DNA of 52,456 nt from Gemmatimonadota bacterium. GTDB taxonomy: Bacteria > Gemmatimonadota > Gemmatimonadetes > Gemmatimonadales > Gemmatimonadaceae. The DNA is taken from the NCBI GenBank assembly GCA_016194585.1, contig JACQBG010000048.1, positions 1 to 52,456 of the forward strand, read 5' to 3'. A program made the position numbers and the translations under genes. The first letter of the stretch is position 1. The number at the start of each line of letters is the position of its first letter. Positions 11,887 to 51,447 of the stretch are shown here, in pieces. The notes below the pieces were generated by a model that was given only the letters and a program-made list of their open reading frames with translations, searched no databases and had not been told where the DNA came from.

Positions 11887-13140
11887 TTGAACCGTCCGCG
11901 ACGCGCTGCACCGACGCTGCGACATCTCCCGTTCTTCGAGGAGCTCGCGCGTCATGAGGAAGGGTCGACCGACGCGCGCTACGCGACGGCCGGCCTCCTG
12001 ATCATGCGGTTGCTCGACCACTGGGAGCTCGCCGGCTCGCAGATGGTGGCGCCCGAATCGGTGAGCGTGCGCGCCGTGCGCGAGGCGATCATGGCGCTGC
12101 CGGCGGGCGATGCGGTGCGCGAGTGCCTGCTGGGCACGGTGAACACGCTGCAGACGTTGCACGAAGTGGATGTGCACCCGGTGCTGCCGCGGTTGTTCGC
12201 GTACGCGAAGCTGCTGGAGCGTCGCGGCGAGCACGCGATGGGGGCGGATGTCTACGAGTCGATCACGCAGCGGGCGAGCGAGGCGTTCGACGGGGATCTG
12301 CTGATCGACGCGTATCTTCGCTTCGCATTCTGCCGCCGTATCATCGGCGCTTTCGAGGTTGCCGAAGAGGCCTATGCGATGGCCGGACGCATCGCAAAGC
12401 GAGGCGGACAAACCGAGCGTGTGCTTCGCGCGCGCTCTGGTCTCGCCAACGTAGCGATCGCGCGCGGCAACCTGCCGAAGGCCGAGACGATGTATCTGGA
12501 GATTGCCGAGGAGTCCGCCGCAGCGGGACTTCTTGAACTCCGAGCCAGCTCGCTACACACGCTCGGCTCCATTACGTACAAGCGCGGATTCCCTGCCAAG
12601 GCCCTTCGGATGGTGCGCGAGGCACTGAGCATCACGAACGATCCGCTCGAGCGCGAGCGCGTGCTGCAGACCATGGGCGCACTGTTGATTCCACTCGAAA
12701 GATTCGACGCTGCCCGCGATGCGCTCAAGTTGGTGGACGCCATCGCGCTTTCCGAGGAAGTTCGAAGCGCCGCTCGCATCGGCCTCGTCTGCGTCGCCGG
12801 GCGAAGCGGCGATCGCAAGGAGTTCGTCGACGCGCTAGCGCGCGTAGAAGGGCGGTCGATGAACGTCGAGGATCGCGCCAACCTCTTCATCGAGAGCGCT
12901 CGTGGCTATCAGCGTTTCGGGGAATTCGAACATGCGAACGCCCTCTTGGAGAGCGCTCGCATGTTCGCCGAAGCCAACGGTCTGAACCGATCGGTGTTCG
13001 AAGTAGAGGCGATGGCGACCGATCTGGCGGCGCAGATCGCGCACGCGCGGGCGGAAGCCGCAGCAGATTCGGAAGTGGAGACCACGTTTACGGAGGTCGA
13101 GCACGACCTACGCAAGCTCACCGCCGAATTCGCCCTCTGA
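11887..13140 (+). CDS. TPR-repeat protein, 417 residues
   Basis: An all-helical protein built from tandem tetratricopeptide-like repeats from about residue 100 to 385 (for example RRGEHAMGADVYESI, ARGNLPKAETMYLEI, FGEFEHANALLESA). No signal peptide or enzymatic domain was seen, so a scaffold or regulatory role is likely. Start is TTG 11887, with GAGGGA upstream; no better start exists in frame. Base composition changes inside the gene: the first 400 bases are as GC-rich as the neighbours, whereas 12300-13100 is visibly lower. It runs convergently towards the small lipoprotein gene. Confidence 0.8.
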   Translation: MNRPRRAAPTLRHLPFFEELARHEEGSTDARYATAGLLIMRLLDHWELAGSQMVAPESVSVRAVREAIMALPAGDAVRECLLGTVNTLQTLHEVDVHPVLPRLFAYAKLLERRGEHAMGADVYESITQRASEAFDGDLLIDAYLRFAFCRRIIGAFEVAEEAYAMAGRIAKRGGQTERVLRARSGLANVAIARGNLPKAETMYLEIAEESAAAGLLELRASSLHTLGSITYKRGFPAKALRMVREALSITNDPLERERVLQTMGALLIPLERFDAARDALKLVDAIALSEEVRSAARIGLVCVAGRSGDRKEFVDALARVEGRSMNVEDRANLFIESARGYQRFGEFEHANALLESARMFAEANGLNRSVFEVEAMATDLAAQIAHARAEAAADSEVETTFTEVEHDLRKLTAEFAL

Positions 13141-13463: not shown

Positions 13464-14318
13464 ATGCACGTCGCCGCCTGCCTCCAACCCGCTAAGCTCG
13501 CACGCCTCCAAGGCGCGGCGGGGGACCGGCATCGACTGTTCGTCGCCCTCGACTGGGCGCACGCCGACATCATCATCCGGCGCCAACCGGTCGACGTTCT
13601 CGTCGTCGACCCGCAGTTCGCCAGTGCCGGCGAGCCCCGCACCGAGAGCATCCGGCGGGTGCGCGACCGCTATCGCGCCCTCCCGATGATCGTCTACTCC
13701 GTGCTCGCGGCGCAGACGCTCCTGCCCCTCGTCGAGTTGGGGCGCGAAGGGCTGGAACAGCTCATCCTCTACGGCCTCGACGACGACCCGCAGCACATCC
13801 GGGAGGCGCTCGAGCGGCAGCCGGGGATCGTCCTCTCGGAGCGCCTCGTCGCACGGCTGCGCACCCCGCTCGGACGGGTCACGCCGGCCATCGGTGACGC
13901 CGTCGAGCGTCTCATCCGCAACCCGGCCGCGTTCCGCGGCGTGCCCGACATCGTCGACGCGGCGGGGGTGCCGCGCCGCTCGCTCTACCGGCACCTCGAG
14001 CGCGCCGGCTTCGTGTCGCCGCGCGAGTTGCTCGCCGGCGCGCGCCTGCTCCGCGCCTACGCCTTCCTGCGTCAGCCGACGTATTCGCTGGACCTTGTAG
14101 CGTCGCACCTTCGGTTCACCGACGCCGAGGCGATGACCTACGCGATGAAGAGCGCGGTCGGGATCACGCCGGCCCGGGCCCGCGACCGGCTGGCCCCGGA
14201 CGAGTTCGTGGCGCGACTCGCCGCGCACCTCTGTCCGCCCGGGGAGCTGGACGACGGATCGCTCGAACACGAGGCGCCGGCCGCGCGCGCCGACACCGGT
14301 GGGTCGTTCGATGCCTGA
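13464..14318 (+). CDS. AraC-family regulator with a receiver-like N-terminal domain
   Basis: A 284-residue DNA-binding protein. Residues 1-120 look like a degenerate receiver fold (VDVLVVDPQF at 43-52, then LPMIVYS) without the usual acidic pair and lysine. Residues about 155-250 form the double helix-turn-helix of AraC proteins: VPDIVDAAGVPRRSLYRHLE and YSLDLVASHLRFTDAEAMTY, followed by GITPARAR. The last 8 bases overlap the start of the receiver gene downstream, so they are co-expressed. It starts 167 bases from, and divergent to, the small lipoprotein gene, a plausible target. It may act without phosphorylation. Confidence 0.82.
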   Translation: MHVAACLQPAKLARLQGAAGDRHRLFVALDWAHADIIIRRQPVDVLVVDPQFASAGEPRTESIRRVRDRYRALPMIVYSVLAAQTLLPLVELGREGLEQLILYGLDDDPQHIREALERQPGIVLSERLVARLRTPLGRVTPAIGDAVERLIRNPAAFRGVPDIVDAAGVPRRSLYRHLERAGFVSPRELLAGARLLRAYAFLRQPTYSLDLVASHLRFTDAEAMTYAMKSAVGITPARARDRLAPDEFVARLAAHLCPPGELDDGSLEHEAPAARADTGGSFDA

Positions 14319-14721
14319 TTCGCTCGGCACGGTGCCGGCGGCGCGCGTGCTCATCGTCGACGACGAGCCGGCGATCTGCAGCGCGCTCTCGCACCTCCTG
14401 CGACGCGCCGGCTTCGACCCCGTGATCGCGCTGGGTCCGCCCGAAGCGGAGCTGCTGCTCTCGGCGGGCATCGACGCGATGGTGCTCGACTTGCGCATGC
14501 CGCACATGCGCGGCGACGTGTTCTTCTACCTGGCGACGGCGCGCTTCCCGCATCTCCGGCGCCGCACGCTGTTCATCACCGGCGACATCACGAGCGACGC
14601 CGAGCGGATGATCACGCACACGGGGTGCGCCTATCTGGAGAAGCCGTTCCAGAACGCGGAGCTGATCGCGGCATTGCGGCGGTTCTTCCCGCAACCCGAG
14701 GCGCGCGAGGTGGCGCGCTGA
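14311..14721 (+). CDS. Single-domain response regulator
   Basis: A 136-residue stand-alone receiver. Acidic pair D17/D18 (LIVDDEP), phospho-acceptor D60 (MVLDLRMP), conserved Thr in FITGD and lysine in LEKPF (K111) are all present. There is no output domain, so it would signal through a partner such as a kinase or the neighbouring DHp-only protein. ATG 14311 lies inside the last codons of the AraC-like gene; a GTG 12 bases earlier in frame is an alternative. Confidence 0.9.
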   Translation: MPDSLGTVPAARVLIVDDEPAICSALSHLLRRAGFDPVIALGPPEAELLLSAGIDAMVLDLRMPHMRGDVFFYLATARFPHLRRRTLFITGDITSDAERMITHTGCAYLEKPFQNAELIAALRRFFPQPEAREVAR

Positions 14722-14736: not shown

Positions 14737-15342
14737 TCAGCCGCGCGCGGCGCGGAGCGCGTCGAGCGCCTGCTCGAGCGCGATGCGCTGGGCGGGCTGC
14801 GTCGCGACGGCGAGCAGCGCCTCGTACGTGCCGATGGCCGTCTTGAGCGCCACCGGGTCATCCTCGGCGCCGGCGAGCGCGGCCGCATTGTCGGCGAGGT
14901 TGACCTTCGCCAGGAGGTCGTCGGGAAAGCGCTGCACGACCTGCTGCCACCGTGTGACGCGCCCGCGCGGGGTCGGTTCGGTGAGCGCCCAGAGGTGCCA
15001 GCCGGCGCGGTTCGTGGGATCGGCGGCGATGGCGCGCGACGCGAGGGCACCGACGACGTCGGGGCCGCGCCCGGTGAGCCAGTACGCGTTGGCGAGGCCG
15101 ATGAGGGCGCGCACATGGTCGGGCTCGCGCTCGACGACGACCTCGAAGATGGGACCCGCGACCTCGTGAAGCTCGCGGTATTCCTCGGCAGCCGCGACGA
15201 GCTCGCCGGTGGGCGACTCCTGCGCCAAGCGCGTCACGCGCTCGAGCAGTCGCGGCACGTCGCCCCGTTGCCGATATTCCTTCACGATCGCGTCGAGGGC
15301 GGCGCGCACGCTCTGTCCGCCGGCCGGTGGTGGGATGGTCAT
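14737..15342 (-). CDS. TPR-like helical protein, 201 residues
   Basis: A soluble, Ala-rich helical protein with TPR-like repeats between about residues 65 and 165 (EREPDHVRALIGLANAYWLT, AADPTNRAGWHLWAL, FPDDLLAKVNLADNAAAL). No catalytic motif or export signal. It is convergent with the receiver gene (stops 15 bases apart) and divergent from the DHp protein at 15387. The ATG is 8 nt downstream of a TAGATT element and has no Shine-Dalgarno sequence. Probably an assembly or interaction protein; the specific role is not visible. Confidence 0.75.
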   Translation of the reverse strand: MTIPPPAGGQSVRAALDAIVKEYRQRGDVPRLLERVTRLAQESPTGELVAAAEEYRELHEVAGPIFEVVVEREPDHVRALIGLANAYWLTGRGPDVVGALASRAIAADPTNRAGWHLWALTEPTPRGRVTRWQQVVQRFPDDLLAKVNLADNAAALAGAEDDPVALKTAIGTYEALLAVATQPAQRIALEQALDALRAARG

Positions 15343-15386: not shown

Positions 15387-15989
15387 ATGAACACGAACGG
15401 GCGGGTGCTGGTCCTGAGCGACGACGCCGCGTTCGCGGCGTCCGCGTGCGGCATCCTTCTGGCGCAGCTCCCGGCGGCCTCGTGCGAGGCGCTCACGCCC
15501 GACAGGATCCGGGCCAATCCTGATTCGGCGGCGGTCGTGCTCGACGGCCGCGGCGACACCCCGACGGCGCTCGAGCGCGCCCGGCTCTATCGGGCGATGG
15601 GGTACGGCGGGGCCCTCGTCATCATCGGCGTGGCGGACGACGATCAGCGCGCGACGGCGGCGCAGCTCGGCAACGCGTTCGTCGCGGTCGAGGCGATGGC
15701 GAGCGAGCTGGTGCCGCGGCTCGCCGAGGGCGTGCAGGACGCCGCGTCGCCGTTCGGCGAGCAACTGCGCCGCGCGCGGCGTCTCGTCGCGGCGGGGGAG
15801 CTCGCGCTCAAGCTGCAGCATGCGCTGAACAACCCGTTGGCCGCGATCCTCGCCGAATCGCAGCTCCTGCAACTCGACGCGACCGACGCGGAGCAGCGGG
15901 CGGCGCTCGACCGGATCGTGGCGATGTGCCGCCGGATGGTGGAGTTGTTGCGCGGACTCGACGGCGTGGGGGAGCGGAAGCCGGCGTAG
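15387..15989 (+). CDS. Receiver-like protein with histidine-kinase DHp box but no ATPase domain
   Basis: A 200-residue protein. The N-terminal ~115 residues resemble a degenerate receiver (VLVLSDDAAFA, VVLDGRGD). Residues 135-190 are a HisKA-type dimerisation helix pair with the phospho-histidine box LQHALNNPLAAI (His145), close to the HExxNPLA box of sensor kinases. The gene stops where the catalytic HATPase domain would begin; no N, G1 or G2 box follows in any frame before rho. It could be a phosphotransfer or phosphatase partner for the receiver protein at 14311, or a degraded kinase. ATG 15387 has GGGAG upstream. Confidence 0.72.
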   Translation: MNTNGRVLVLSDDAAFAASACGILLAQLPAASCEALTPDRIRANPDSAAVVLDGRGDTPTALERARLYRAMGYGGALVIIGVADDDQRATAAQLGNAFVAVEAMASELVPRLAEGVQDAASPFGEQLRRARRLVAAGELALKLQHALNNPLAAILAESQLLQLDATDAEQRAALDRIVAMCRRMVELLRGLDGVGERKPA

Positions 15990-16127
15990 CCGGATCCCAC
16001 CGGTGGGGTGGGAAGGGTTGCGCGAACGGCGGGATGGCGACATACTCAAGCCGTCGCCCCGCCCACCGCAGCACGGGCCGAGGGGAAGCTAGGTCGCCGG
16101 ATCGCGCGTGAGTTTGCCGCGAGAGTC

Positions 16128-16154
16128 CCCGCGACACGCCCGCATTGTCGCGGG
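16128..16154 (+). promoter_or_regulatory. rho: Hairpin in the rho leader region
   Basis: A perfect 9-bp stem (CCCGCGACA and complement) with a 9-nt loop lies about 130 bases before the rho start, within a 297-base gene-free region. Rho genes are commonly autoregulated by premature termination in their leader; whether this hairpin takes part is inference. Nothing else clear was found in this gap apart from a short palindrome just after the preceding stop. Confidence 0.4.
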
Positions 16155-16286
16155 CAGCCACAGTTCGAGCAGGCCGCATCCATTTCCAGTGTCGTACCGC
16201 GCTTCGAGCGCACCCGGGACGCCGACGAGTGGCATCGTCCGTCCATTTTCCGTTCCAGCAGCCCCACAGTCGAGCCACACACCGTA

Positions 16287-17837
16287 ATGAACGAACGTCG
16301 ACGCCCCAATCGTCGCGGCCGCGGCACACGCGGCCGCGGAAGCGCAGCTCCTGCGAATCCCGAAACGCCGGGTGAAGCGGATCCGTACCGCGATCCTTCC
16401 GAGGACGGCGGCGGTCCGCCGCCGGATGCCGGTGGGGACGACGGAGGGGACCGGCCGGCGGAATCCGCCGCGTCGGACGCCGGGGATGGCGGGGACGCGG
16501 CGACGCGCCAGGATCAGGGGATGACGGCGCCGGCACCAGGCGGGAATGGCGCACCGATGGAATACCGCCAGCATGGGAACAACAACGACCGGCAGGGCGA
16601 GCGGCAGGGTGGACGACGTGGGCGCCGGAATCGTCGTGGACGGAACCGGGGTGGTGTGGGCGGGGGCGGCGCGGCACCGCAGCACGAGCAGCCGTCGGGA
16701 CCGCCGATCCCGATCGTCGCGGACGGCGTGTCGGAGGGGTGGTTCGATCCGTCGCGGGACGCCGGGTTCATCCGGCGAGCGCAGTTCAGCTATCTCGCCG
16801 ACCCGGGCGATGCCTACGTCGGCCCGCAGCTGGTGCGGCAGTACGGACTGCGCCGTGGCGACAAGCTGGTGGCGTCGACGGGGCGGGACCATCGCGGCCG
16901 GCTGACGGTCGCCGAGATCACGGCGATCAACGACAACGATCCGGCCGAGGCCGTACGCCGGCCCGACTTCCAGACCCTGACGGCGAGCTATCCGGAGCGC
17001 AAGCTGACGCTCGAGACGGGGCGCCCGGCGAAGGGTGGACCGGAGGTGACGCGGCGCGCGATCGACCTCATCGCGCCGATCGGCTACGGCCAGCGCGCCC
17101 TGATCGTTGCGCCGGCGCGCGCCGGCAAGACGATGCTGATGCAGGCGATCACGGAGGGGATCGCGATCAACCATCCGAACGCGACGCTGCTCATCCTGCT
17201 GGTGGACGAGCGCCCGGAGGAAGTGAGCGAAGCGATCTCGTGGGGCGTCGGGGAGGTGATCGCGAGCAGTTTCGACCAGCCGGCGAAGCGGCACGTCGAG
17301 GTGGTGGAGATGGTGATGGAGCGGGCGCGCCGCCTCGTCGAGACGGGGAAGGACGTGGTGATCGTGCTCGACTCGCTGACGCGCATGGCGCGCGCCTTCA
17401 ACACGGCGGAGCGCGGCACGGGACGCACGCTGTCGGGCGGTCTCGACAGCTCGGCGATGGCGCGGCCGAAGGCGTTCTTCGGCTCGGCGCGCAACATCCT
17501 GCCGGAGCATGGCGGCGGCTCGCTGACGATCATCGCGACGGCGCTCGTCGAGACGGGATCGCGGATGGACGACGTGATCTTCGAGGAGTTCAAGGGCACG
17601 GGCAACTGCGAGATCAAGCTCGACCGGTCGCTGGCCGAGAAGCGGATCTTCCCGGCGTTCGACATCGGCACGAGCGGCACGCGTCGCGAGGAGAAGCTGT
17701 ACAACGCGAGCCAGATCGACGCGATCTACACGTTGCGGCGCGGGCTGCAGCAGATGCCGCCGCAGAGCGCGATGGAGTGGCTCATCAAGCGCATCGCGGC
17801 GACGACGAGCAACGACGCGCTGCTGGCCGGACTCTAG
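16287..17837 (+). CDS. rho: Transcription termination factor Rho
   Basis: A 516-residue hexameric RNA helicase that ends transcription. Residues 1-135 are a disordered extension rich in Gly, Asp and Arg with RG repeats (GRRGRRNRRGRNRGG near 109-123) in place of a recognisable Rho_N helical domain. The cold-shock RNA-binding domain is at about 140-215 (ADGVSEGWFDPSRDAGFIR), the P-loop APARAGKT at 275-282, Walker B at IVLDSLTRMARA, and the Q/R-loop segment at FFGSARNILPEHGGGSLTI, ending EFKGTGNCEIKLDR. ATG 16287 is chosen because the earlier frame is antisense-like. The stop overlaps the stop of the convergent cassette by 4 bases. Confidence 0.95.
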   Translation: MNERRRPNRRGRGTRGRGSAAPANPETPGEADPYRDPSEDGGGPPPDAGGDDGGDRPAESAASDAGDGGDAATRQDQGMTAPAPGGNGAPMEYRQHGNNNDRQGERQGGRRGRRNRRGRNRGGVGGGGAAPQHEQPSGPPIPIVADGVSEGWFDPSRDAGFIRRAQFSYLADPGDAYVGPQLVRQYGLRRGDKLVASTGRDHRGRLTVAEITAINDNDPAEAVRRPDFQTLTASYPERKLTLETGRPAKGGPEVTRRAIDLIAPIGYGQRALIVAPARAGKTMLMQAITEGIAINHPNATLLILLVDERPEEVSEAISWGVGEVIASSFDQPAKRHVEVVEMVMERARRLVETGKDVVIVLDSLTRMARAFNTAERGTGRTLSGGLDSSAMARPKAFFGSARNILPEHGGGSLTIIATALVETGSRMDDVIFEEFKGTGNCEIKLDRSLAEKRIFPAFDIGTSGTRREEKLYNASQIDAIYTLRRGLQQMPPQSAMEWLIKRIAATTSNDALLAGL

Positions 17838-18817
17838 TTCGGGACCGACGACTTCTCGTCGAACCAATCCGCGAGAGTACGGAAAAGCTCGGCGCACGCG
17901 TCCCACGAGAGTCGTGCGCCGTAGGCGGTCGGTTCCCGTGTGACATTGATGGCAGCGAAGAACGAGCTGTGCTCCCGCCACAGCTCCCGCGTGCGCGAGA
18001 TAGCCTGATATCCGTCCATCCCAGACGTCCCGGTGGCCCCGCGCGATGGCCACGTGGCATTCCACTTCGCGAGGAACGCGAACGCGTCGTAGTAACGGCG
18101 CCATGTGAGATGTTCTTCCGCGTCGATCCGAAGAAGCTCACGCCACTTCGAAGGTCTCGCCGTGAAGATCGCCGGGCGATCGCCAGTCGACTCGATCCAC
18201 CATGCTTCCGTCAGATCGTTCAGCGCCTCACGAACGGCCGGGACGGAATAGCCCGTTAGTTCCGCGAGTTCCCGAGTGGTCAGCCACTCGGGGGCACTAC
18301 CGAGCAACACGGCGAGCACGTCGGGCTTGACGCCGAGTCCGAGGCCCAGCCGAAGCTGAAGCAGAGTTGTTGCGCCCGACCTCCATCGCCCGACGCGGAC
18401 CGCTTTGCGAGACGATTCACGTTTCTGACGGTCTTCTGGCACGTCGATGCGATGCGGCTTGCTGACGACCGCGCGCCAACTGGCGCTTCCCGTGCGCGCC
18501 CGCACGCGCGCCGCTAGGCCGCTGAGTTCTCGATCGGTGTCGGTGCCTGTCAGCATAGGTCGCAGTGCGCGCAATCGACTAATGCTCACCAAGTCTGAGT
18601 TCTCGGCGAGCCACTCTTCGGCGATGTCGGCAAGCCTGCGCTCGCGATATGCTAGAGCGAGACTACCGAGGATCAACGACTCGGGATCGACCATGACGTC
18701 GGACGAGCCGGGGGAACCGGAAGTAGCGACACCTATGCGCCCCCACTGTCGCCACGCATTGGCGACTGCGGCCTCGTTGAGCGTCTCGCTGCTAGCGGCG
18801 ATGCTGTTCTGCGACAT
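17834..18817 (-). CDS. Winged-helix protein of the nucleotidyltransferase cassette (putative antitoxin)
   Basis: A 327-residue protein with a winged helix-turn-helix at about 177-215 (WLTTRELAELTGYSVPAVRE, then WWIES), preceded by a basic linker and followed by a Trp/Arg-rich region (EEHLTWRRYYDAFAFLAKW). No signal peptide. It overlaps the upstream nucleotidyltransferase gene by 26 bases, so the two are one unit. A transcription regulator or AbiEi-like antitoxin role is inferred from this pairing. The gene is visibly lower in GC than rho and the peptidase gene on either side, and its stop shares CTAG with the rho stop, suggesting a transferred cassette. Confidence 0.72.
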   Translation of the reverse strand: MSQNSIAASSETLNEAAVANAWRQWGRIGVATSGSPGSSDVMVDPESLILGSLALAYRERRLADIAEEWLAENSDLVSISRLRALRPMLTGTDTDRELSGLAARVRARTGSASWRAVVSKPHRIDVPEDRQKRESSRKAVRVGRWRSGATTLLQLRLGLGLGVKPDVLAVLLGSAPEWLTTRELAELTGYSVPAVREALNDLTEAWWIESTGDRPAIFTARPSKWRELLRIDAEEHLTWRRYYDAFAFLAKWNATWPSRGATGTSGMDGYQAISRTRELWREHSSFFAAINVTREPTAYGARLSWDACAELFRTLADWFDEKSSVPN

Positions 18818-19409
18818 GTCGAATCACCCAGTCGATGCGGTCGTCGAGATCCCTCGCGACATTGGCTGACCGGACCCACGTCGCTGCCGAATTGAGTTCT
18901 TCGGTCGTCGCGCGAAGCGCGACCAAGTCATCAAGATGGCGGCGTTCCGTGGGTACGATGCTCCACGTCTCCCCGCGCTGAACGTGGTCGGCTGCCGCCT
19001 CGAGCTTGAGTGCGATCAGATCCGTGCGATGCAGCACGCCGATCTCCAAGCTCCCGTAGCGACGCCACTGGATGCGATCACCGTAGCCAATGGGCAGACC
19101 TGCGGAGTAGCCGGACGACATCTCTGAGTTGAGCCAATCGCTCGGCAGTCCGAAGTCCGTCGCGACTTCTTCGACCCATCGCAGAAGATCGCGAGGCAGG
19201 GGATTCGGCGCCGGGACCAACTCCGTTCGTTCGTTCCGAATGCACAGGACGTCGACGTCAGCGGTCGTGCGCGCCAATCGATCGAGGAGGGCGAGCGCCG
19301 CGCCGCCAGCGACCACGAACGCGTATGAAATTCCGCGTGCGTCGAGCAACCTGCCGAGCGCGCCGAGCGCATCGTCGATCGGCGCCGCAGAGCCGAAGGG
19401 TTTCTCCAT
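18792..19409 (-). CDS. AbiEii/DUF6036-like nucleotidyltransferase (putative toxin)
   Basis: A 205-residue DNA polymerase beta-superfamily protein. Motif I is GGAALALL (35-42) with the metal-binding pair D51/D53 in TTADVDVL. Motif III is DLIALKLEAAADH with Lys135, and motif IV is RRHLDDLVAL (D160/D161). These four match the layout of AbiEii-type toxins, which transfer nucleotides to RNA or protein targets. The first motif is GGA, not the GGS of most active enzymes. ATG 19409 follows a long AT-rich leader. A household role for an orphan nucleotidyltransferase is possible; the partner gene and composition favour a defence or toxin-antitoxin module. Confidence 0.72.
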   Translation of the reverse strand: MEKPFGSAAPIDDALGALGRLLDARGISYAFVVAGGAALALLDRLARTTADVDVLCIRNERTELVPAPNPLPRDLLRWVEEVATDFGLPSDWLNSEMSSGYSAGLPIGYGDRIQWRRYGSLEIGVLHRTDLIALKLEAAADHVQRGETWSIVPTERRHLDDLVALRATTEELNSAATWVRSANVARDLDDRIDWVIRHVAEQHRR

Positions 19410-37761: not shown

Positions 37762-38397
37762 TCAGCTCGGCGACGCGCCCGGCTCCGAATCGAGCACCGC
37801 CTTGGCGATCTCGACCATCGGCTTCGACCGGTCCTGGCTCGAACGCTGGAGGATCTTGTACGCCTCCGGCTCGGAGCAGCCGGTGCGGCGCATGAGGATG
37901 CCCTTGGCGCGTTCGATGATCTTGCGCGCCTCGAGCGCGGCCTTGGCCTCCGTGGCGTCACGGCGCGCGTTGCGGAACTGCGCGGCGCGTGTGACGGCGA
38001 GCCGGATGGTCGAGTCGAGCATCTTCGGCGGCACGGGCTTCGGGAGGAACGCCACCGCGCCCGTCGTGACCGCTTCCTTGTCGGAGAGGGTCACGTTCTC
38101 GTCGCCGCTGTAGAGGATCACGGCGATGCCTGGGAAGGTGCGCGTGATGACCTCGGCGGCCTCGATGCCCGAACCGTCGGGCATGTGGACGTCGAGGAGC
38201 ACCGCGTCGGGGTGCAGCTCGCGCGCCTGGTTGGCGGCTTCGATGCCGCCGGAGACCGCCGCGACCACGTCGTGGCCGAGGGCGAGGAGCGCTTCGCTGA
38301 GCATCTCGCGCGCGTCGAGGTCGTCCTCGGCGAGGAGGATGCGGAGTTTCGTGCTGAGGTCGTGCGTCGACGTGGGCTTCATCGCAATCGTCGTCAT
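37762..38397 (-). CDS. ANTAR-domain response regulator (AmiR/NasR type)
   Basis: A 211-residue protein with an N-terminal receiver and a C-terminal RNA-binding ANTAR domain. The receiver has EDD at 24-26, phospho-acceptor D69 (VLLDVHMPDG) and K120 (FLPKPV). ANTAR covers about 146-203: ALEARKIIERAKGILMRRTG then SEPEAYKILQRSSQDRSKPM, matching the three-helix family. Such proteins bind paired hairpins in leader RNAs and block terminators when phosphorylated. Its ATG overlaps the stop of the DHp-only gene (ATGA), naming that protein as its likely partner. No target hairpin pair was identified by eye. Confidence 0.93.
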   Translation of the reverse strand: MTTIAMKPTSTHDLSTKLRILLAEDDLDAREMLSEALLALGHDVVAAVSGGIEAANQARELHPDAVLLDVHMPDGSGIEAAEVITRTFPGIAVILYSGDENVTLSDKEAVTTGAVAFLPKPVPPKMLDSTIRLAVTRAAQFRNARRDATEAKAALEARKIIERAKGILMRRTGCSEPEAYKILQRSSQDRSKPMVEIAKAVLDSEPGASPS

Positions 38398-38699
38398 TTT
38401 GGGGGGACTGTGGAGGATGGGGCCGAAGGGGCGGGCGCGCCAGTGGGAGACACCGCGGACGCAGTATCGCCGAGCCGTTCCCGGTCGAGGACTGCCCGCA
38501 TCTTCGCGACCAATCGTTCTTCGGCCTTCGCGAACACTTCGATCTTCTTCGCCAGCTCCCGGACCTTCGCCGGGTCGTCGGCATGCGTGTCGAGCAGGAA
38601 CGCGGCGGACGTGATCGGTGTCAGCACGTTGCGCGCTTCGTGGATGATCGCGCGGCCGACCCGTTCCGCCGCGGCGAGTTCACGATCGAGTTCGTTCAT
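38394..38699 (-). CDS. Short protein with a histidine-kinase DHp box only
   Basis: A 101-residue protein. Residues 1-75 are two helices with an H-box, AIIHEARNVLTPITSAAFLL (His20), like HisKA domains; residues 76-101 are a Pro/Ala/Ser tail. There is no sensor or ATPase domain. It overlaps NDH-2 upstream and the ANTAR regulator downstream by ATGA at both ends, so the three are made together. It may shuttle phosphate to, or remove it from, the regulator, or may recruit a kinase ATPase in trans. A decayed kinase is less likely given the intact tight couplings. Confidence 0.72.
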   Translation of the reverse strand: MNELDRELAAAERVGRAIIHEARNVLTPITSAAFLLDTHADDPAKVRELAKKIEVFAKAEERLVAKMRAVLDRERLGDTASAVSPTGAPAPSAPSSTVPPK

Positions 38700-39964
38700 G
38701 CACGCACCGCGCCGCTCGGCGTGCCACCCGTGATGAGGCGTACGCCGCGCTGGAAGGTCAACCACGCCCATGCCCATTCGAACAGCACGATGGCGCGGTT
38801 GCGGAAGCCGACGAGGTACATGATATGCACGAACACCCAGAGCAGCCACGCGAGGATGCCATCGACGCGGAGCCGACCGAAGACGGCTACCGCACGGTTC
38901 CGGCCGATCGTCGCGAGATCGCCCTTGTTGAGGTATGCGAATGGGCGCGTCGGCGCACCTTGGACCAGGCGGATCAGGTTGCGCGCCGCGTGCGTGCCTT
39001 CCTGATTCGCCGCGGGAGCAACTCCTGCTACCCAAGAATGGCTGTTTCGTTTCACGGCCGCGAGGTCCCCGACCACAAAGACCTCCTGGTGCCCTGGGAT
39101 GGACAGGTCGGGCTCGACCAGCACCCGTCCGGCGCGGTCGAGCGGGACCCCCAGGGAGGCGCCCAGTGGGGACGCCTGATTCCCCGCCGCCCAGAAGACG
39201 GCGTGGCTCGCGATGCGCGTGTCCCCGACGGTCACGACGCCGGGGGCGATGTCCGTAACCGATGCCCCGGTGCGCACCTCGACGCCGAGCCGCTCGAGGT
39301 CGCGTCGGGCGCGGTCGCTGCTCCCCTCCGGGAAGGTCGGGAGCAGACGCGGGCCGCCTTCGAGGAGCACGACACGGGAGCGCCGCGTGTCGATGCGGCG
39401 GAAGTCGCGCGGCATCGCCCGGTGGGCGATCTCGACCATCGTGCCGGCCAGCTCGACGCCGGTCGGACCGCCGCCGACGATCACGAACGTCATCAGCGCC
39501 TCGCGCTCGGCGTCGGACGTCGCGTGCTCGGCGCGCTCGAAGGCGAGGAGGAAGCGGCGGCGGATCTCGAGCGCGTCGTCGAGGCTCTTGAGCCCGGGCG
39601 CGAGCGGTTCCCACGCATCGTGGCCGAAGTAGGCATGGCGGGAACCGGGGGCGGCGATGAGGTAGTCGTACGTCAGCGGTTCGGGCTCGCCGGCGAAGTG
39701 GAGCGCGCGCGCGGCGACGTCGATGCGGGTCACGTCGCCGAGGCGCACGGTGACGTTGCGCTGGGCGCGGAGCGCCCACCGGATGGGCACGGAGATGTCG
39801 CTCGGCGAGAGCCCCGCGGTCGCCACCTGGTAAAGCAGCGGCTGGAACAGATGGTGGTTGGTGCGGTCGACGAGGGTGACGCGCACGGGCGCGCGCCGCA
39901 GCGCCTTCGCGGCGGAGAGTCCGCCGAAGCCGCCGCCGATGACGACGACGTGCGGCGTCGTCAC
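38696..39964 (-). CDS. Type II NADH:quinone oxidoreductase
   Basis: A 422-residue single-subunit, non-proton-pumping NADH dehydrogenase. FAD fold VVVIGGGFGGLSAAKAL at 6-22, then DRTNHHLFQPLLYQVATAGL (quinone/FAD region), second dinucleotide fold VIVGGGPTGVELAGTM, and GHQEVFVVGDLA near the C-terminal FAD site. The end has amphipathic and hydrophobic helices (ILAWLLWVFVHIMYLVGF) for membrane attachment. GTG 39964 overlaps the symporter stop (GTGA). The company of a symporter and an ANTAR system suggests respiratory adjustment to a transported nutrient, which is inference. Confidence 0.93.
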   Translation of the reverse strand: MTTPHVVVIGGGFGGLSAAKALRRAPVRVTLVDRTNHHLFQPLLYQVATAGLSPSDISVPIRWALRAQRNVTVRLGDVTRIDVAARALHFAGEPEPLTYDYLIAAPGSRHAYFGHDAWEPLAPGLKSLDDALEIRRRFLLAFERAEHATSDAEREALMTFVIVGGGPTGVELAGTMVEIAHRAMPRDFRRIDTRRSRVVLLEGGPRLLPTFPEGSSDRARRDLERLGVEVRTGASVTDIAPGVVTVGDTRIASHAVFWAAGNQASPLGASLGVPLDRAGRVLVEPDLSIPGHQEVFVVGDLAAVKRNSHSWVAGVAPAANQEGTHAARNLIRLVQGAPTRPFAYLNKGDLATIGRNRAVAVFGRLRVDGILAWLLWVFVHIMYLVGFRNRAIVLFEWAWAWLTFQRGVRLITGGTPSGAVRA

Positions 39965-41637
39965 GCGCCCACGGCCGCCGGCGCCGGCCGCAGCGCGCTG
40001 ATGGCGAGACCGACCACCATCACCGCGACGACGCCGACGACGTTGTGCCAGAGGAAGCTCACCTCGGGCGCGCCGAAGCTCACCGCGGCGACGGCCGCCA
40101 TGCCGGCGAGCATGCCGAAGAAAGCGCCGGCCGCGGTCGCGCGGCGGAGCATGGCGAGGAAGAAGACGCCGAGGATGGAGCCGTAGAAGAACGACCCGAA
40201 CCGGTTGACGACCTCGATGAGCGAACCGAGCGAGACGGCGAACGTCGCGACGACGCAGGCGAACGTCCCCCACCCCGCCGTGGCGACGCGGGAGACGCGC
40301 AGGTAGTGGGTGTCGGTCGCCTCGGCGCGGACCCAGCGCTTGTAGAAGTCGATGACGGTCGCGCTCGAGAGCGACGCGAGCTCGCCGGCGACGGCGCTCA
40401 TCGCGGCGGCGATCACGGCGGCGATGAAGACCCCGGTGAGCCCGATGGGGAGTTCGTGGAGGACGAAGTACGGGATGATGTAGTTGACGTCCTTGGTCGG
40501 CTGCCCGGTCGCCTTCCCCGCCGCGGCGAGGGCGTCGGCGTGGATGCGGTCGTCCTCCTGCTGGGCGGCCTGCAGGCGGTGCAGCGGCCCGGTGGCGCGG
40601 TCAGCGGGCGCCGCCCGGAAACTCTCCATCGCCTGGGCGCGGTAGATCCACGACGCGGACTGCCGCTGTTCGAGCTGCACATAGGCGTCGGGTGCGGCGG
40701 CGCGCACGGCGCGATCCTGCGCGGGGTTCCAGTAGAGCGGCGGCGCGACGAACAGGTAGTACACGAACACGAGCACGCCGACGAGCAGCACGAGCGCCTG
40801 AAGCGGGATCTTCCAGTAGGCGCTGATGAGATGCGACGACCGCGCCTCGTCGACGCTCTTCGCGGTGAGATAGCGTTGCACCTGGCTCTGATCCGTGCCG
40901 AAGTACGACAGCATGAGGAACGTGCCGCCGATGACGCCGCTCCAGAACGTGTAGGTGTTGGTGAGGCTGAAGTGGAAGTCGAACACCTGCAGGCGTCCGC
41001 TCGCGCCGGCGATGCGGAGGGCGTCGACCGGGCTCACCGGGAGGCGCGTCAGCAGCACGACGACGACGGCGACGAGCGCGCTCACGACGAGCACCATCTG
41101 CTTCACGTCGGCCCAGGCCACCGCCTGCACGCCGCCGATCATCGTGTAGACCACCGTCGGCACGCCGATGAACGCGACGCTCGCCCACATGCTCCAGCCG
41201 AACAGCGTCGAGAAGACCACGGCGGGCGCGGCGATGATGGTGCCGCACGAGAGCCCGCGCGAGAGCAGGAAGAGGAAGGCGGCGAGGGAGCGCGTCTTCG
41301 CGTCGAAGCGGCGCTCGAGGAATTCATACGCCGTGTACACCTTCGCGCGCATCAGGAAGGGGACGATCGTGACGCCGAGGATGAGCATCGCGACCGGAAG
41401 GCCGAAGTAGAACTGGACGAAGCGCATCCCGTCGGTGGCGCCCTGCCCCGTGGTGCCGATCATCGTCACGGCGGAGAGCTGGGTGGCCATCACCGAGAGC
41501 CCGACGGCCCACCACGGCAGCGAGCGGTTGCCGAGGAAGTAGCCGTCGAGCTTCGTCGTGCCGTGCGACCGGCGCAGGCCGTCGACGAACACGAACACCA
41601 GCCAGCCGATGACGATCGCCCAGTTGATCCAGTGCAC
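39961..41637 (-). CDS. Sodium:solute symporter (SSS family)
   Basis: A 558-residue membrane protein with about 13-14 hydrophobic segments. Family text: GWLVFVFVDG, DGYFLGNRSLPWWAVGLSVM, ATQLSAVTMIGTTGQG and MIGGVQAVAWADVKQMVLVV. A soluble insert of roughly 90 residues (about 310-395) interrupts the helices. SSS proteins co-import sugars, amino acids, sialic acid or vitamins with sodium; the neighbouring PIG-L deacetylase relic hints at an amino-sugar derivative. The start is GTG 41637, 9 bases after the stop of the small membrane protein. Confidence 0.92.
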   Translation of the reverse strand: MHWINWAIVIGWLVFVFVDGLRRSHGTTKLDGYFLGNRSLPWWAVGLSVMATQLSAVTMIGTTGQGATDGMRFVQFYFGLPVAMLILGVTIVPFLMRAKVYTAYEFLERRFDAKTRSLAAFLFLLSRGLSCGTIIAAPAVVFSTLFGWSMWASVAFIGVPTVVYTMIGGVQAVAWADVKQMVLVVSALVAVVVVLLTRLPVSPVDALRIAGASGRLQVFDFHFSLTNTYTFWSGVIGGTFLMLSYFGTDQSQVQRYLTAKSVDEARSSHLISAYWKIPLQALVLLVGVLVFVYYLFVAPPLYWNPAQDRAVRAAAPDAYVQLEQRQSASWIYRAQAMESFRAAPADRATGPLHRLQAAQQEDDRIHADALAAAGKATGQPTKDVNYIIPYFVLHELPIGLTGVFIAAVIAAAMSAVAGELASLSSATVIDFYKRWVRAEATDTHYLRVSRVATAGWGTFACVVATFAVSLGSLIEVVNRFGSFFYGSILGVFFLAMLRRATAAGAFFGMLAGMAAVAAVSFGAPEVSFLWHNVVGVVAVMVVGLAISALRPAPAAVGA

Positions 41638-47303: not shown

Positions 47304-49400
47304 CTAATCCGAGGCCGGGAGGGAGGCGGGTTTCGCCCCGGCTCCGAAGGACGCGCGGCGGTCGCGGCGGTGCAGGAGCCACACGGCGAGTGCATACAGC
47401 GCGAGCGCCATCCAGCTCAGGGCCTCGAGTCCGAACGCCATCGAGGCGTACTCGAGCACACCCCCCGCGACGGCCCCGAGGATGTTGTAGGCGAGCCCCG
47501 CCGTCGGGTGCCGCTGTGCCGCATAGGCCCGCGAGAAGAGGTACGATGCGGCGAGGATCGGGAAGCCGACGTACCCGCCCGCGACGAGCCAGCGCATCCA
47601 CGGCGCGACCGACGTGAGCGCGGCCGGCCGCACGATCGTCGAGGCCGCGAGCAGCACGGCGAGCGTGCCGAGGGCGAGCGCCGGGGGCGGCATGACGCCG
47701 CGATCGGTGGAGATTGCGGCCAACAGCGCGACGGCCAGGATCGCGGCGATGACGGCGGCGTTCACCGTCCACGTGGAACCGAACAGCAGGGAGAGCGTGG
47801 TGATGCTCTTCGTCTCGAGCAGCAGGAACCCGGCGCCGATGAGGAAGAGCGGCCAGTCCGGGGCGGCGAGAGCGCGGCGTCCGCCGCCGGCGGCGACGAA
47901 GCCGAGCGCGAGCACGAGCACCATGGCGATGATCGCGGCGTAGTGCGTCGGCAGGCGGCGGCCCCGCAGGTACGGGAAGGGCCAGTCGTCGGTCGAGAGC
48001 CGGAGCTGCATGCGCAGCGGATCGCCTGGCGCGACGGCCGGCGCTCCCTGGGCGCCGGCGCCGGCGACGAACGTGTACGAGAACAGCCAGTCGGTGTCGG
48101 CCGTGAGCACGCGCGGCGGTTTTCCGAACGCTTGTTCGAGATTCTGGAAGAGGCGCGCGGCGATGAACCAGAGACCGGAGAGATGGTACATCACGACCGA
48201 GCCGTCGGGGTGCAGCGCGGCGCGCGCGGCGCGGAACGACTCCTGCGTGTAGACGTAGTTGTCGAGTCGCACCGAGTTCATGCCGCCGAGCAGCGTTTGG
48301 CTGTCGAGCGTGCCGAAGGTGATCACGTCGTAGTGACGCGGCGGCGCGCGGAGGAACGCGCGCGCGTCGGTCACCACGAGGTGCACGCGCGGATCGTCGT
48401 ACGGGTGCATCGGGTGCGACGCCTTGCCGATGCGCGCGATGACAGGGTCGATCTCGACGGCGTCGATGTACTTCGCGCCGAGGCCGAGCAGGATCGCGAG
48501 ATCGTTGCCCGTCCCCGCGCCGACGACGAGGACCGTGTCGAGGCGGCTCACGAAGCGGTACGGACGCTCGTAGCCCACCTTCTGGTCGGCGATCCGCGGC
48601 GATTCGGCGCCGCGCGAGAAGTCGAGCATCACCTGGTGGAGCGCGCCGTTCACGTTGAGCGTGGTCGCGCCGGGCAGTCCCTGCGGCTCCGTCGTGATGC
48701 GGTAGTAGGGCGACCAGATCTCGTCGTGCGTCGACCCGAGCCGGGCGGTGATGCCGATGGCCACGGCGAAGCCGGCCGCCGACAGCGCGACGAGCGCGCG
48801 CCGCGGCCACACGAGCGCGAGCCAAACCACCGCCGCCGTCGCGAACCACGCCACGGGGGGCGTCGACCACGCGCTCATCATCGTGAACGAGAGCACACCG
48901 ACGAGGCTGCCCCCGAGGTCGGCCGCGTATGCCGGCAGCGCGCGCCACGGCGCCATCGCGGCGCCGAGCAGCGCGCCCAGCGGCACGAAGCAGGCGGCGG
49001 TGAGCGCGAACAGTCCGACGACCGTGAGCGAGAGCGGCACGTGGCGTCCCGCCGCCGGACCCGTGTCGACGCCCCAGAGCCACTCGAGGCCGTCGGTGCG
49101 CACGTCGATGGCCGCGCCGGCCAGGTACGCCGTGAACCCGAACAGCAGCACGAGCAGCACGGGCATCGTCCATCGGAGCCGCCCGGCGTGCCGCGACCGC
49201 AGCAGCCCCGTGCCCATGCCGAGGAACGCCGCGATGATGACGAAGTTCGTGTAGAACGCGAACACGCGCACGTAGCCCGCGAGGAAGCGGATGAGCGCGA
49301 GTTCGAGGAAGAGGATCAGCCACGACGTCGCGGCGATGCGCGCGACGACGTGCGCCGGAGGGCCGCGACGCGATCCCGCCGCGGTCGTGTCTTCGATCAA
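47304..49400 (-). CDS. Membrane protein with an internal spermidine-synthase-like methyltransferase fold
   Basis: An approximately 698-residue fusion. About seven hydrophobic helices come first (ATSWLILFLELALIRFLAGY onward). A soluble SpeE-like domain (about 270-500) has the nucleotide-binding motif VLVVGAGTGNDLAILL, acidic DAVEIDPVIARIG and the gate-loop-like FGTLDSQTLLGGMNSVRL. A further set of hydrophobic helices ends the protein. The family is broadly distributed and mostly uncharacterised; polyamine synthesis is not assured because the gate residues differ from soluble SpeE. TTG 49400 overlaps the kinase stop (TTGA); an internal GTG is possible. Confidence 0.82.
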   Translation of the reverse strand: MIEDTTAAGSRRGPPAHVVARIAATSWLILFLELALIRFLAGYVRVFAFYTNFVIIAAFLGMGTGLLRSRHAGRLRWTMPVLLVLLFGFTAYLAGAAIDVRTDGLEWLWGVDTGPAAGRHVPLSLTVVGLFALTAACFVPLGALLGAAMAPWRALPAYAADLGGSLVGVLSFTMMSAWSTPPVAWFATAAVVWLALVWPRRALVALSAAGFAVAIGITARLGSTHDEIWSPYYRITTEPQGLPGATTLNVNGALHQVMLDFSRGAESPRIADQKVGYERPYRFVSRLDTVLVVGAGTGNDLAILLGLGAKYIDAVEIDPVIARIGKASHPMHPYDDPRVHLVVTDARAFLRAPPRHYDVITFGTLDSQTLLGGMNSVRLDNYVYTQESFRAARAALHPDGSVVMYHLSGLWFIAARLFQNLEQAFGKPPRVLTADTDWLFSYTFVAGAGAQGAPAVAPGDPLRMQLRLSTDDWPFPYLRGRRLPTHYAAIIAMVLVLALGFVAAGGGRRALAAPDWPLFLIGAGFLLLETKSITTLSLLFGSTWTVNAAVIAAILAVALLAAISTDRGVMPPPALALGTLAVLLAASTIVRPAALTSVAPWMRWLVAGGYVGFPILAASYLFSRAYAAQRHPTAGLAYNILGAVAGGVLEYASMAFGLEALSWMALALYALAVWLLHRRDRRASFGAGAKPASLPASD

Positions 49401-51436
49401 CCGAGGGCTGCCAGCAGGTCGTGGAGCTCGGTCGCCGACTGCGGACGCTCCTCGGGTTTCTTGGCCAACGTGCGCATGACGAGGTCGGACAGCGCCTGCG
49501 GCACCTCGGGGTTCACGGTCGACGGGGGCACCGGCGTCTCCTCGAGGAGCTTGGCGATGAGCGCGTACTGGTTCTCCGCCGAGAGCGGGGTCGCCCCCGT
49601 GAGGCATTCGTAGATCACGCAACCGGCCGAGTAGATGTCGGCGCGGGCGTCGATCTCACCGCCCATCAACTGCTCCGGAGCCATGTACTCGGGCGTGCCG
49701 ACGACCATGCCGGCCTGCGTCATCCCCTCGGTGCGCGTCGCGAGGCGGGCGATGCCGAAGTCCATGACCTTCAGCACGCCGTCGGGCTCGACGACCATGT
49801 TGTGCGGCTTCACGTCGCGATGGATGACCCCCTGTTCGTGGGCCACCTCGAGCGCGCGGCACAGCTGCTTCGCCACCGAGAGCGTGACCGGCACGGGAAG
49901 GCGCCCGCGCTCCCGGATGAGCTGCTTGAGCGACTTCCCCTCGACGTACTCCATCGTGATGAAGTACACGCCGCCGTACTCGCCGAGGTCGTGGGTGCGG
50001 ACGACGTTGCGGTGCGAGATGCGACGCGCGAGGCGGATCTCGCTCTTGAACCGGTCGAGCGCGAGGGGATCGCGCGAAAGGACCTCGTCCTTGAGCGTCT
50101 TGATGGCGACGACGTCGCCGAGTTCGGTGTCGACCGCCTTGAACACGGACCCCATCCCGCCGACGCCGAGGAGTTCCTTCACGTCGTAGCGGATGGCGAA
50201 CCGCGACCCCGGCGTCACGCCGGCCTCGCGGGCGGCGAGCTGCATGCTGCGTCGCGCCGCCTCGATCTGCACCGTGCGCGCCTCGGCGGGATCCGACGGA
50301 CCGCTGAGGAACTCCACGAGCGACTGCTTCTCGCGGAGGTCGGCGAGCATCGCGCGGAAGGCGTCGGCGAGCGTGCCGATCTCGCCCGTGGCGCGCACCG
50401 TGATGTCGGCCGAGTAGTCGCCGTCGGCGGCGCGGCGCGTGGCTTCGACGAGCTGGTCGACGGGACGGGTCACCTGCCGCGCGATGCCGAACGAGAGCGC
50501 GCCCGCGATGACGAGGCCCGCCACGAACCCGAACAGGATGATCGTGCGTAACTGATTGAACGCCGCGAACTCCCGGTCGCGGCTCCGCAGCACCGCCACG
50601 CCACCGACCGGCCCGCCCGACGCGTTCAGGAGCCGGGAGCCGAGCGCGACGAACCGCTGCCCGGCGATCACCGGCTCGACGCGCATCGACGCCGAGTCGC
50701 CTTTCACCGGCGTCGCGGCGAGGTCGGCCACCAGCTTGGCGACCTCGGCGCCGCGCCCCACGGTGCTCGCCGCGACGTGCGGCTTGCCCTGCAGGTCGAG
50801 GGCGAAGAACACCACGTCGACGTCGCCGTTCCCCTTGATGGACGCGGCGAACGCGTTGTCGAGTGCCTTCGCCGCCATGAGCGTGCCGATCACCTGGTTC
50901 CCCGCGCCCGGGATGGGCACGGCGACGGCCTGGATGAGCGTGGTGTCGGTGACGTTCCCGTAGCCGGTGGCGAACTTCCCCTCGAGCGCCGTCCCGATGA
51001 GCGCCGAGCCGGAGAGGGTGTCGGCCGGTGCGCCCGGCTCATCGCTCTTCGCGAGGCGCACGCCCGCGGCGTCGGTGATCTGCACCCAATCGGCCCCCGT
51101 GCGATCGACCGCCTCCTGCGCCTGGTCGAGGACGTCGTTGGTGCGCTTCGATTCGACGAGGGAGCGGAATCCCGACCCGATGACGAACGTCTCGGCGTTG
51201 CGCCGCAGCGCCACGCCGCGCTCGGACAGCTTCGTGCCGACGATCTCGCGCGTGTTGCGGAGCGCCCGGTCCACCGCCTGGTCGGCGGTGCGATTGGCCG
51301 AGCGCCAGGTCAGCAGGAGGATGACGCCAAGCACCGCCGCGACGATCGCCGCGGTGCCGGCGAAGATCCTCGTGGAGAGGGTCAGTCCCCGGCTCGGCGT
51401 CGGAGCGCGCAGCGGTATGGTCTGGGTGTCAGTCAC
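49397..51436 (-). CDS. Receptor-type Ser/Thr protein kinase with extracytoplasmic sensor and HAMP domain
   Basis: A 679-residue transmembrane kinase. TM1 at about 22-43; a Cache-like periplasmic sensor of roughly 250 residues (WVQITDAAGVRLAKSDEPG inside); TM2 at about 299-319; HAMP at 320-372 (RQVTRPVDQLVEATRRAADG); kinase domain at 417-679. The catalytic set is complete: glycine loop GVGGMGSV, Lys446 (VAIKTL), HRDVKPHN (539-546), DFG (559-561) and the APE-like MAPEQ. The layout resembles a sensor histidine kinase with a Hanks-type output. GTG 51436 is 11 bases after the cupredoxin-like gene; the three minus-strand genes form a likely operon. Confidence 0.93.
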   Translation of the reverse strand: MTDTQTIPLRAPTPSRGLTLSTRIFAGTAAIVAAVLGVILLLTWRSANRTADQAVDRALRNTREIVGTKLSERGVALRRNAETFVIGSGFRSLVESKRTNDVLDQAQEAVDRTGADWVQITDAAGVRLAKSDEPGAPADTLSGSALIGTALEGKFATGYGNVTDTTLIQAVAVPIPGAGNQVIGTLMAAKALDNAFAASIKGNGDVDVVFFALDLQGKPHVAASTVGRGAEVAKLVADLAATPVKGDSASMRVEPVIAGQRFVALGSRLLNASGGPVGGVAVLRSRDREFAAFNQLRTIILFGFVAGLVIAGALSFGIARQVTRPVDQLVEATRRAADGDYSADITVRATGEIGTLADAFRAMLADLREKQSLVEFLSGPSDPAEARTVQIEAARRSMQLAAREAGVTPGSRFAIRYDVKELLGVGGMGSVFKAVDTELGDVVAIKTLKDEVLSRDPLALDRFKSEIRLARRISHRNVVRTHDLGEYGGVYFITMEYVEGKSLKQLIRERGRLPVPVTLSVAKQLCRALEVAHEQGVIHRDVKPHNMVVEPDGVLKVMDFGIARLATRTEGMTQAGMVVGTPEYMAPEQLMGGEIDARADIYSAGCVIYECLTGATPLSAENQYALIAKLLEETPVPPSTVNPEVPQALSDLVMRTLAKKPEERPQSATELHDLLAALG

Positions 51437-51447
51437 GTCTGGCGCGC

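Follow-up and report, generated by a model that had tools for sequence, protein, structure and literature searches.

The window analysed here is a stretch of 52,456 nucleotides from a Gemmatimonadota bacterium (assembly GCA_016194585.1, contig JACQBG010000048.1, positions 1 to 52,456), and the features of interest within it are the following, with the support for each given in brackets.

11887-13140, plus strand: TPR protein, its position often conserved ahead of the AraC gene (Pfam, synteny)
13464-14318, plus strand: AraC-type regulator with a degenerate receiver-like N-terminus (Pfam HTH_18)
14311-14721, plus strand: stand-alone receiver (REC) of 136 aa, the putative partner of the DHp protein (Response_reg, 47.1 bits)
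14737-15342, minus strand: TPR-like protein, the syntenic marker between the REC and DHp genes (Pfam, synteny)
15387-15989, plus strand: DHp-only protein of 200 aa (Pfam HisKA match, alignment of orthologues, structure model)
about residues 5-115 of the DHp-only protein: degenerate receiver-like domain
about residues 122-196 of the same protein: HisKA/DHp hairpin with His145, Ala146 (H+1) and Asn149 (H+4)
15819-15821, plus strand: codon of the phosphoacceptor-type His145, within LQHALNNPLAAI (His kept in 45/45 aligned orthologues)
16008-17837, plus strand: frame of rho, the transcription termination factor, as downstream syntenic marker (NCBIfam, 453.7 bits)
37762-38397, minus strand: REC-ANTAR response regulator (Pfam Response_reg and ANTAR)
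38394-38699, minus strand: second DHp-only protein, 101 aa, with a HEARN H-box and its His codon from 38642 (HMM, relatives)

The 15387-15989 gene encodes a DHp without an ATPase domain, fused to a receiver-like domain, as a preliminary description made from the sequence alone had proposed. The HisKA family (PF00512) matches residues 138-189 with 32.5 bits (cut-off 26.9; 35.0 bits in the genome-wide search) and is the only Pfam match above cut-off in the protein. HATPase is absent, the chain ends 55 residues after His145, and the frames of the window encode no HATPase_c directly downstream. The ATG at 15387 is consistent as a start with the closest orthologue, whose N-terminus reads MTTIGRVLVL. 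At E 0.1 the Pfam scan of the protein returned neither PAS or GAF nor HPt (PF01627), and zero matches to the CheZ, CheX, Spo0E and Rap families; any likeness to these phosphatases would be one of function only. As for the N-terminal part, Pfam gave no Response_reg match there, its hhalign comparison with a REC alignment was weak (probability 29.8, E 5.6e-4), and the columns that are invariant across 13 long forms include neither Asp nor Lys of the active site. We call this part receiver-like and degenerate.

An AlphaFold2 model from the single sequence was poor (mean pLDDT 55.3, with 39 residues at 70-90), and places helices at 122-162 and 167-196. Its top Foldseek match was LvrB (PDB 8vc9, E 2.0e-4), which likewise carries REC and then DHp in one chain but differs from the 15387 protein in having a working REC and a catalytic domain, as described in PMC13269768. 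With VIA-align, the model hairpin compared to HK853 with Z 8.8 (3.1 Å over 82 residues) and to ChpT with Z 6.5 (3.1 Å over 61 residues), and model residues 2-75 compared to receivers with Z 5-6. The whole model reached Z 9.4 over 152 residues against LvrB with an rmsd of 28.4 Å, so that the agreement with LvrB is piecewise only. Because the model is poor and unrelated helical proteins score almost equally, we take these fold matches as support only.

DHp-only proteins had been supposed to be a recurring design rather than the product of chance truncation, and the relatives of the 15387 protein bear this out. Eight of the 18 genomes of the genus, its own included, match over nearly the whole protein, and a search of 148 genomes of the family revealed additional long and short relatives. 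Beyond the window, we located orthologues at 44 loci of the family, which we take to be Gemmatimonadaceae, and almost all of them sit in one position, between the TPR gene and rho. Photosynthetic reaction-centre genes are present in two of the genomes compared (G063 and G110) and absent from three others (G038, G033 and that of the window), a distribution consistent with this family. Ten pairs of orthologous hairpins gave dN/dS values of 0.05-0.27, a sign of purifying selection, and these values together with the synteny lead us to reject chance truncation. Forty of the regions had been picked by their match to the 15387 protein, so that the presence of the hairpin gene in 40/40 (39 by pattern, L093 by reading) is by selection and the His count given below is not blind. 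Within these 40 regions the TPR gene occurs in 39, rho in 36, REC in 26 and AraC in 25; three of the four regions without rho lie at contig ends and the remaining one, L068, does not. The preliminary description had advised a look for an HATPase domain downstream in close relatives. All 45 orthologues (window plus 44) end past the hairpin and zero run on into such a domain, and among the orthologues read we found no relative with a catalytic domain.

Two forms of the gene can be distinguished. The long form, of about 200-245 aa, consists of the pseudo-receiver and the hairpin, and the short form comprises frames of about 63-116 aa that hold the hairpin and little more, or the hairpin behind some other short N-terminal extension. 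The His lies only about 5 residues from the start of the hairpin in L093 and L171. The fusion to a receiver-like domain, which had been seen as part of the design, is thus present but dispensable, many orthologues having little beyond the hairpin. Another search, for the TPR protein, covered 43 genomes selected because the 15387 protein matched them weakly or not at all; 39 had it, and 30 of the loci were read. The hairpin gene was intact in one of them (L106), decayed in another (L104) and not found in the other 28 (among which L109 is short), and the DHp gene is therefore accessory. The decayed copy in L104 has the TPR gene on one side and rho on the other. On a tree of 72 TPR proteins the presence of the DHp gene switches about 12 times, and the long and short forms interchange at least 4 times.

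Willett and Kirby assigned the two activities of HisKA kinases to different residues: kinase activity alone depends on the acid at H+1 and phosphatase activity alone on the Thr or Asn at H+4, and a mutant of the Asn retained near wild-type phosphotransfer (PMC3510030). Since the pattern used to find hairpin genes demands the His and Asn positions, we counted residues instead in a MAFFT alignment of the 45 orthologues (the window, the 40 regions and L169-L172). The His and the Asn at H+3 are present in all 45, H+4 is Asn in 44 and Ser in one, and H+5 is Pro in 42. The acidic H+1 is found in only 7 of the 45 and is lost in 38, the 15387 protein having Ala. As a control we took all 43 HATPase-partnered HisKA segments of the genome to which the window belongs, 41 of them with the His (L217 was not counted), and in these full-length kinases H+1 is acidic in 38/41 (D 20, E 18, Q 2, T 1). 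The difference between 7/45 and 38/41 has a Fisher p of 8e-14, uncorrected for kinship; the acid/other state of H+1 switches only about 3 times on the tree, and the 45 orthologues therefore represent few independent events. The sequence around His145 had been described as a good kinase H-box. The invariant His agrees with the expectation that the residue would be found in homologues, but with the acidic H+1 lost, what remains of the published signatures in this H-box is that for phosphatase activity and not that for kinase activity. A relaxed H+1 beside a retained H+4 is the pattern expected of a receiver-acting DHp that does not need phosphorylation by ATP.

The surroundings are the patch of orphan signalling parts that had been described, a stand-alone REC and an AraC-type protein adjoining one another. 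The REC has the active-site residues attributed to it, and they are kept in relatives: D8, D50, K101, P102 and F103 are invariant in 20 aligned stand-alone receivers, and D7 is nearly so. The AraC-type protein was likewise correctly read as carrying a degenerate receiver, its N-terminus having the beta-3 Asp in 26/26 rows and, by eye, neither the acidic pair nor the Lys. The rho frame at 16008-17837 (plus strand) has a long low-complexity N-terminal extension ahead of its RNA-binding domain.

Structure prediction of the DHp dimer with the receiver at 14311 had been proposed, and the tie between the two genes is suggestive. REC adjoins the DHp gene in 28/42 scorable loci, against 5/27 loci without a DHp gene (raw Fisher p 0.00016), but it is absent next door in 14/42, and on the tree of the neighbouring TPR proteins the linkage is not significant (7 independent pairs, median p 0.625), nor is it within the genus alone (p 0.29). 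Four of nine congeneric genomes without the DHp gene still have REC beside the TPR gene. Left out of this count were L056, L058 and L171 (contig ends), L104 (decayed) and L109 (short), and L106 and L172, which are the same locus, were counted once; the flank read was 1.5 kb at DHp-negative loci versus up to about 5 kb at positive ones, so that a REC lying farther off would be missed in the negatives.

Two DHp-only proteins had been reported in these 52 kb. PF00512 gives one match only in the contig, and an HMM built from the HisKA segments of the same genome recovered a second hairpin in the window (E 0.0034), at 38394-38699, which is backed by its relatives and is most likely the DHp-only protein that had been counted first. 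A motif pattern demanding Pro, Gln or Ala after the Asn does not detect it. The gene begins within the last codons of the 38699-40600 frame, which from its C-terminus we take to be NDH-2-like, and its end overlaps the start codon of the REC-ANTAR gene. Matches to this hairpin occur in 63/148 genomes of the family, and in 29/29 loci read (L226-L254) a REC-ANTAR relative lies near the match. Three congeners (L226-L228) have a hairpin-only protein beside REC-ANTAR 84-86% identical to the window's. At 19 loci of more distant genera the frame extends 222-380 residues past the start of the match, an extension that by eye appears to be a catalytic domain; tblastn did not re-find the hairpin at L244, L245, L249-L251, L253 and L254. 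Because distant relatives have a longer kinase there, an in-place domain loss seems visible at 38394, and loss of the catalytic domain with retention of the regulator is the simplest reading of these frames. The idea that both proteins of the window represent one design therefore holds as far as recurrence goes, but their histories differ, a longer kinase being found in relatives only at 38394.

The proposed count of HisKA proteins lacking HATPase gave 3/46 in the genome of the window, the other 43 matches having HATPase_c within 600 bp downstream on the same strand. Two of the three lie in frames of 737 and 864 residues, in which about 200 or more residues past the H-box look by eye like a degenerate catalytic domain, and since these two run long the 15387 protein is the only PF00512 match of this genome without room for one. 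In two other genomes the HisKA matches without an HATPase partner numbered 6/41 and 3/55; in one of the two (G019) at least the match on contig C198 lies at a contig edge. On a wider scale, the hairpin alignment has matches at E 1e-6 in 266/395 genomes of the phylum, many of which lie in long frames of full kinases. A scan of genome contigs for relatives of the 15387 protein gave one planctomycete protein only, which by eye seems to continue past the DHp into a catalytic domain, and a scan of viral contigs gave zero.

Small hairpin proteins were also present in 9/20 further regions, from other families of the order (L155-L162 and L168; stop-to-stop frames from 62 aa). Eight of the nine have a rho gene of 47-50% identity close to the hairpin, L162 being a short contig, and H+1 is Asp in 8/9. 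As these other-family hairpins are mostly acidic and the second gene of the window keeps Glu, the relaxed H+1 is not a general signature of such proteins. Where the upstream side of these nine regions was read, a conserved protein of about 97 aa (LW..VR.LR.HH.RDLYRSL) precedes the hairpin or overlaps with it. Other arrangements were observed in passing. In another family of the class (L164:4330-6068) a 214-aa pseudo-receiver-DHp protein is directly followed by a regulator of REC-HD-GYP type (HD-GYP by eye). The same genus has another receiver and DHp protein without a catalytic domain (ALQHEINNPLAA; L010-L018 and L020-L026), with a conserved tail around SVEYLG.ARMIDI; it occurs in most congeners by sequence, but the matches in the window's genome do not include it. 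Loci from other families within the phylum (L163, L165, L166, L173, L174) encode what by eye are membrane-, PAS- or GAF-like proteins that have a DHp and end too soon for a catalytic domain, and most have a similar tail (EY..G.KMIDL type), which suggests a second widespread design without a catalytic domain and with its own C-terminal motif.

We infer that the 15387 protein, a DHp without kinase function, takes phosphate off a receiver, the REC at 14311 being the probable one, or otherwise hands that receiver's phosphoryl group on. The first option, a phosphatase made solely of a DHp hairpin and acting on a receiver, most plausibly the stand-alone REC, is the one we prefer, although we would put it a little short of an even chance. 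The hairpin would assemble as a dimer with the usual four-helix bundle, to which the receiver would dock, but could not form phospho-His from ATP; it would then take the phosphoryl group off the phosphorylated receiver, most plausibly the REC at 14311, with Asn149 placing the attacking water and His145 assisting. Reverse phosphotransfer onto His145 may also occur, and the degenerate N-terminal receiver, found in some lineages only, may tune activity or dimerisation. For a phosphatase speaks the 38394 locus, where in the window and three congeners a hairpin stands with REC-ANTAR and without a catalytic domain. In a gel assay the DHp of HK853, on its own, acted as a phosphatase in a pH-dependent manner (PMC5727384), and a title cited in the same paper concerns EnvZ phosphatase activity without the catalytic domain; these, however, are laboratory fragments, whereas the 15387 protein is the product of a natural gene. 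Against a phosphatase stand the loss of the REC-DHp link in the tree-aware test and the His that never varies in 45 orthologues. The His contributes to HisKA phosphatase activity but is not essential to it (PMC12632262), and since the activity does not strictly need it, its invariance fits phosphotransfer at least equally well.

Phosphotransfer of the kind performed by Spo0B, ChpT and PhyT is the alternative to be taken most seriously, even if we consider it rather unlikely. An unlinked kinase would phosphorylate the stand-alone REC, from which the phosphoryl group would pass to His145 and on to another receiver. The 15387 protein resembles these three in being a DHp hairpin with a His and no autokinase, and the similarity of its model hairpin to HK853 and ChpT, given above, would agree with such a role. 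Spo0B keeps a degenerate catalytic-type domain. ChpT and PhyT retain one as well, whereas the 15387 protein, ending where it does, has none, which tells against the comparison. PhyT is described as relaying phosphate from a single-domain regulator, SdrG being a single-domain receiver partner of PhyT as we propose for the REC at 14311, and the layout of a single-domain REC, a DHp protein and a regulator would by analogy recall the SdrG-PhyT-PhyR relay (PMC5898713). However, the sole linked second receiver, that of the AraC protein, has neither acidic pair nor Lys, and the Asn at H+4 is nearly invariant though phosphotransfer does not need it (PMC3510030).

That the hairpin is a non-catalytic adaptor, which does no more than dimerise and bind a receiver, or joins full-length kinases in mixed dimers, titrating or anchoring them, we hold to be unlikely. 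A bare hairpin is indeed the portion of a kinase that dimerises and docks, its N-terminal part has been swapped or lost repeatedly on the tree, and the frequent switching of its presence is what one would see for a modulator, but a pure adaptor would need neither the His nor the Asn at H+4 that the family keeps. It is less probable again that the gene encodes half of a split kinase, phosphorylated in trans by an HATPase protein encoded elsewhere. Such kinases are known (PMC3591291) and the genome of the window does have HATPase_c matches without a HisKA partner, but most orthologues have lost the acid at H+1 on which kinase chemistry depends, and no HATPase gene was found downstream of 15387 in the window. 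Decay of a functionless kinase remnant, for which one could cite the copy in L104 and the many TPR-anchored loci without the gene, in genomes selected for matching poorly or not at all, is very improbable given the low dN/dS, the identical slot over many genera and the invariant active positions.

Returning to the preferred phosphatase, one may extend it to a dedicated family of response-regulator phosphatases, each a DHp hairpin of about 60-110 aa with or without a pseudo-receiver, that would have arisen through loss of the catalytic domain, the 38394 locus showing this loss in place. We offer this larger claim tentatively, as possible but on the doubtful side.

Proteins with HisKA and no HATPase are already known as an untested census class. 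P2CS places HisKA proteins without HATPase or receiver among the phosphotransfer proteins (PMC2716373), and in the archaeal census of PMC5847659 proteins labelled 'HisKA, no HATPase' or 'possible incomplete histidine kinase' have been suggested to act as phosphoacceptors or in phosphotransfer or phosphatase roles; REC proteins with HisKA and without HATPase are mentioned there too (AF_1472). The 15387 protein is like this archaeal class in its HisKA with a conserved His and no HATPase. Archaeal members carry PAS, GAF or other sensor domains (PMC5847659), whereas the 15387 family consists of the hairpin, alone or behind a pseudo-receiver. Unlike the archaeal class, too, the proteins described here are bacterial, occupy a fixed neighbourhood, have a relaxed H+1 with the Asn at H+4 kept and include one apparent case of in-place domain loss. 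Our searches of the open-access literature brought up no study of bare DHp proteins from this group. As far as these searches show, what is new is the syntenic hairpin family, the relaxed H+1 with a retained H+4, and the domain loss that seems to have happened in place next to REC-ANTAR.

DHp hairpins have mostly been studied within kinases, where mutagenesis has separated the residues for kinase and phosphatase activity. A natural family without the catalytic domain, in which the kinase residue is relaxed and the phosphatase residue kept, would, if the reading is true, be evolution's version of that mutagenesis. It would also provide a very small response-regulator phosphatase or relay protein, and some of the 'incomplete histidine kinases' of genome surveys would be working parts and not fragments.

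Elsewhere in the window, a nucleotidyltransferase with an AbiEii/DUF6036 match lies beside a protein with a winged-helix-type match (18792-19409 and 17834-18817, both on the minus strand), and the two look like an AbiE-type toxin-antitoxin pair. The frame at 49397-51601 (minus strand) combines a Ser/Thr-type protein kinase domain with HAMP and a weak Cache-like match, an unusual sensor layout.
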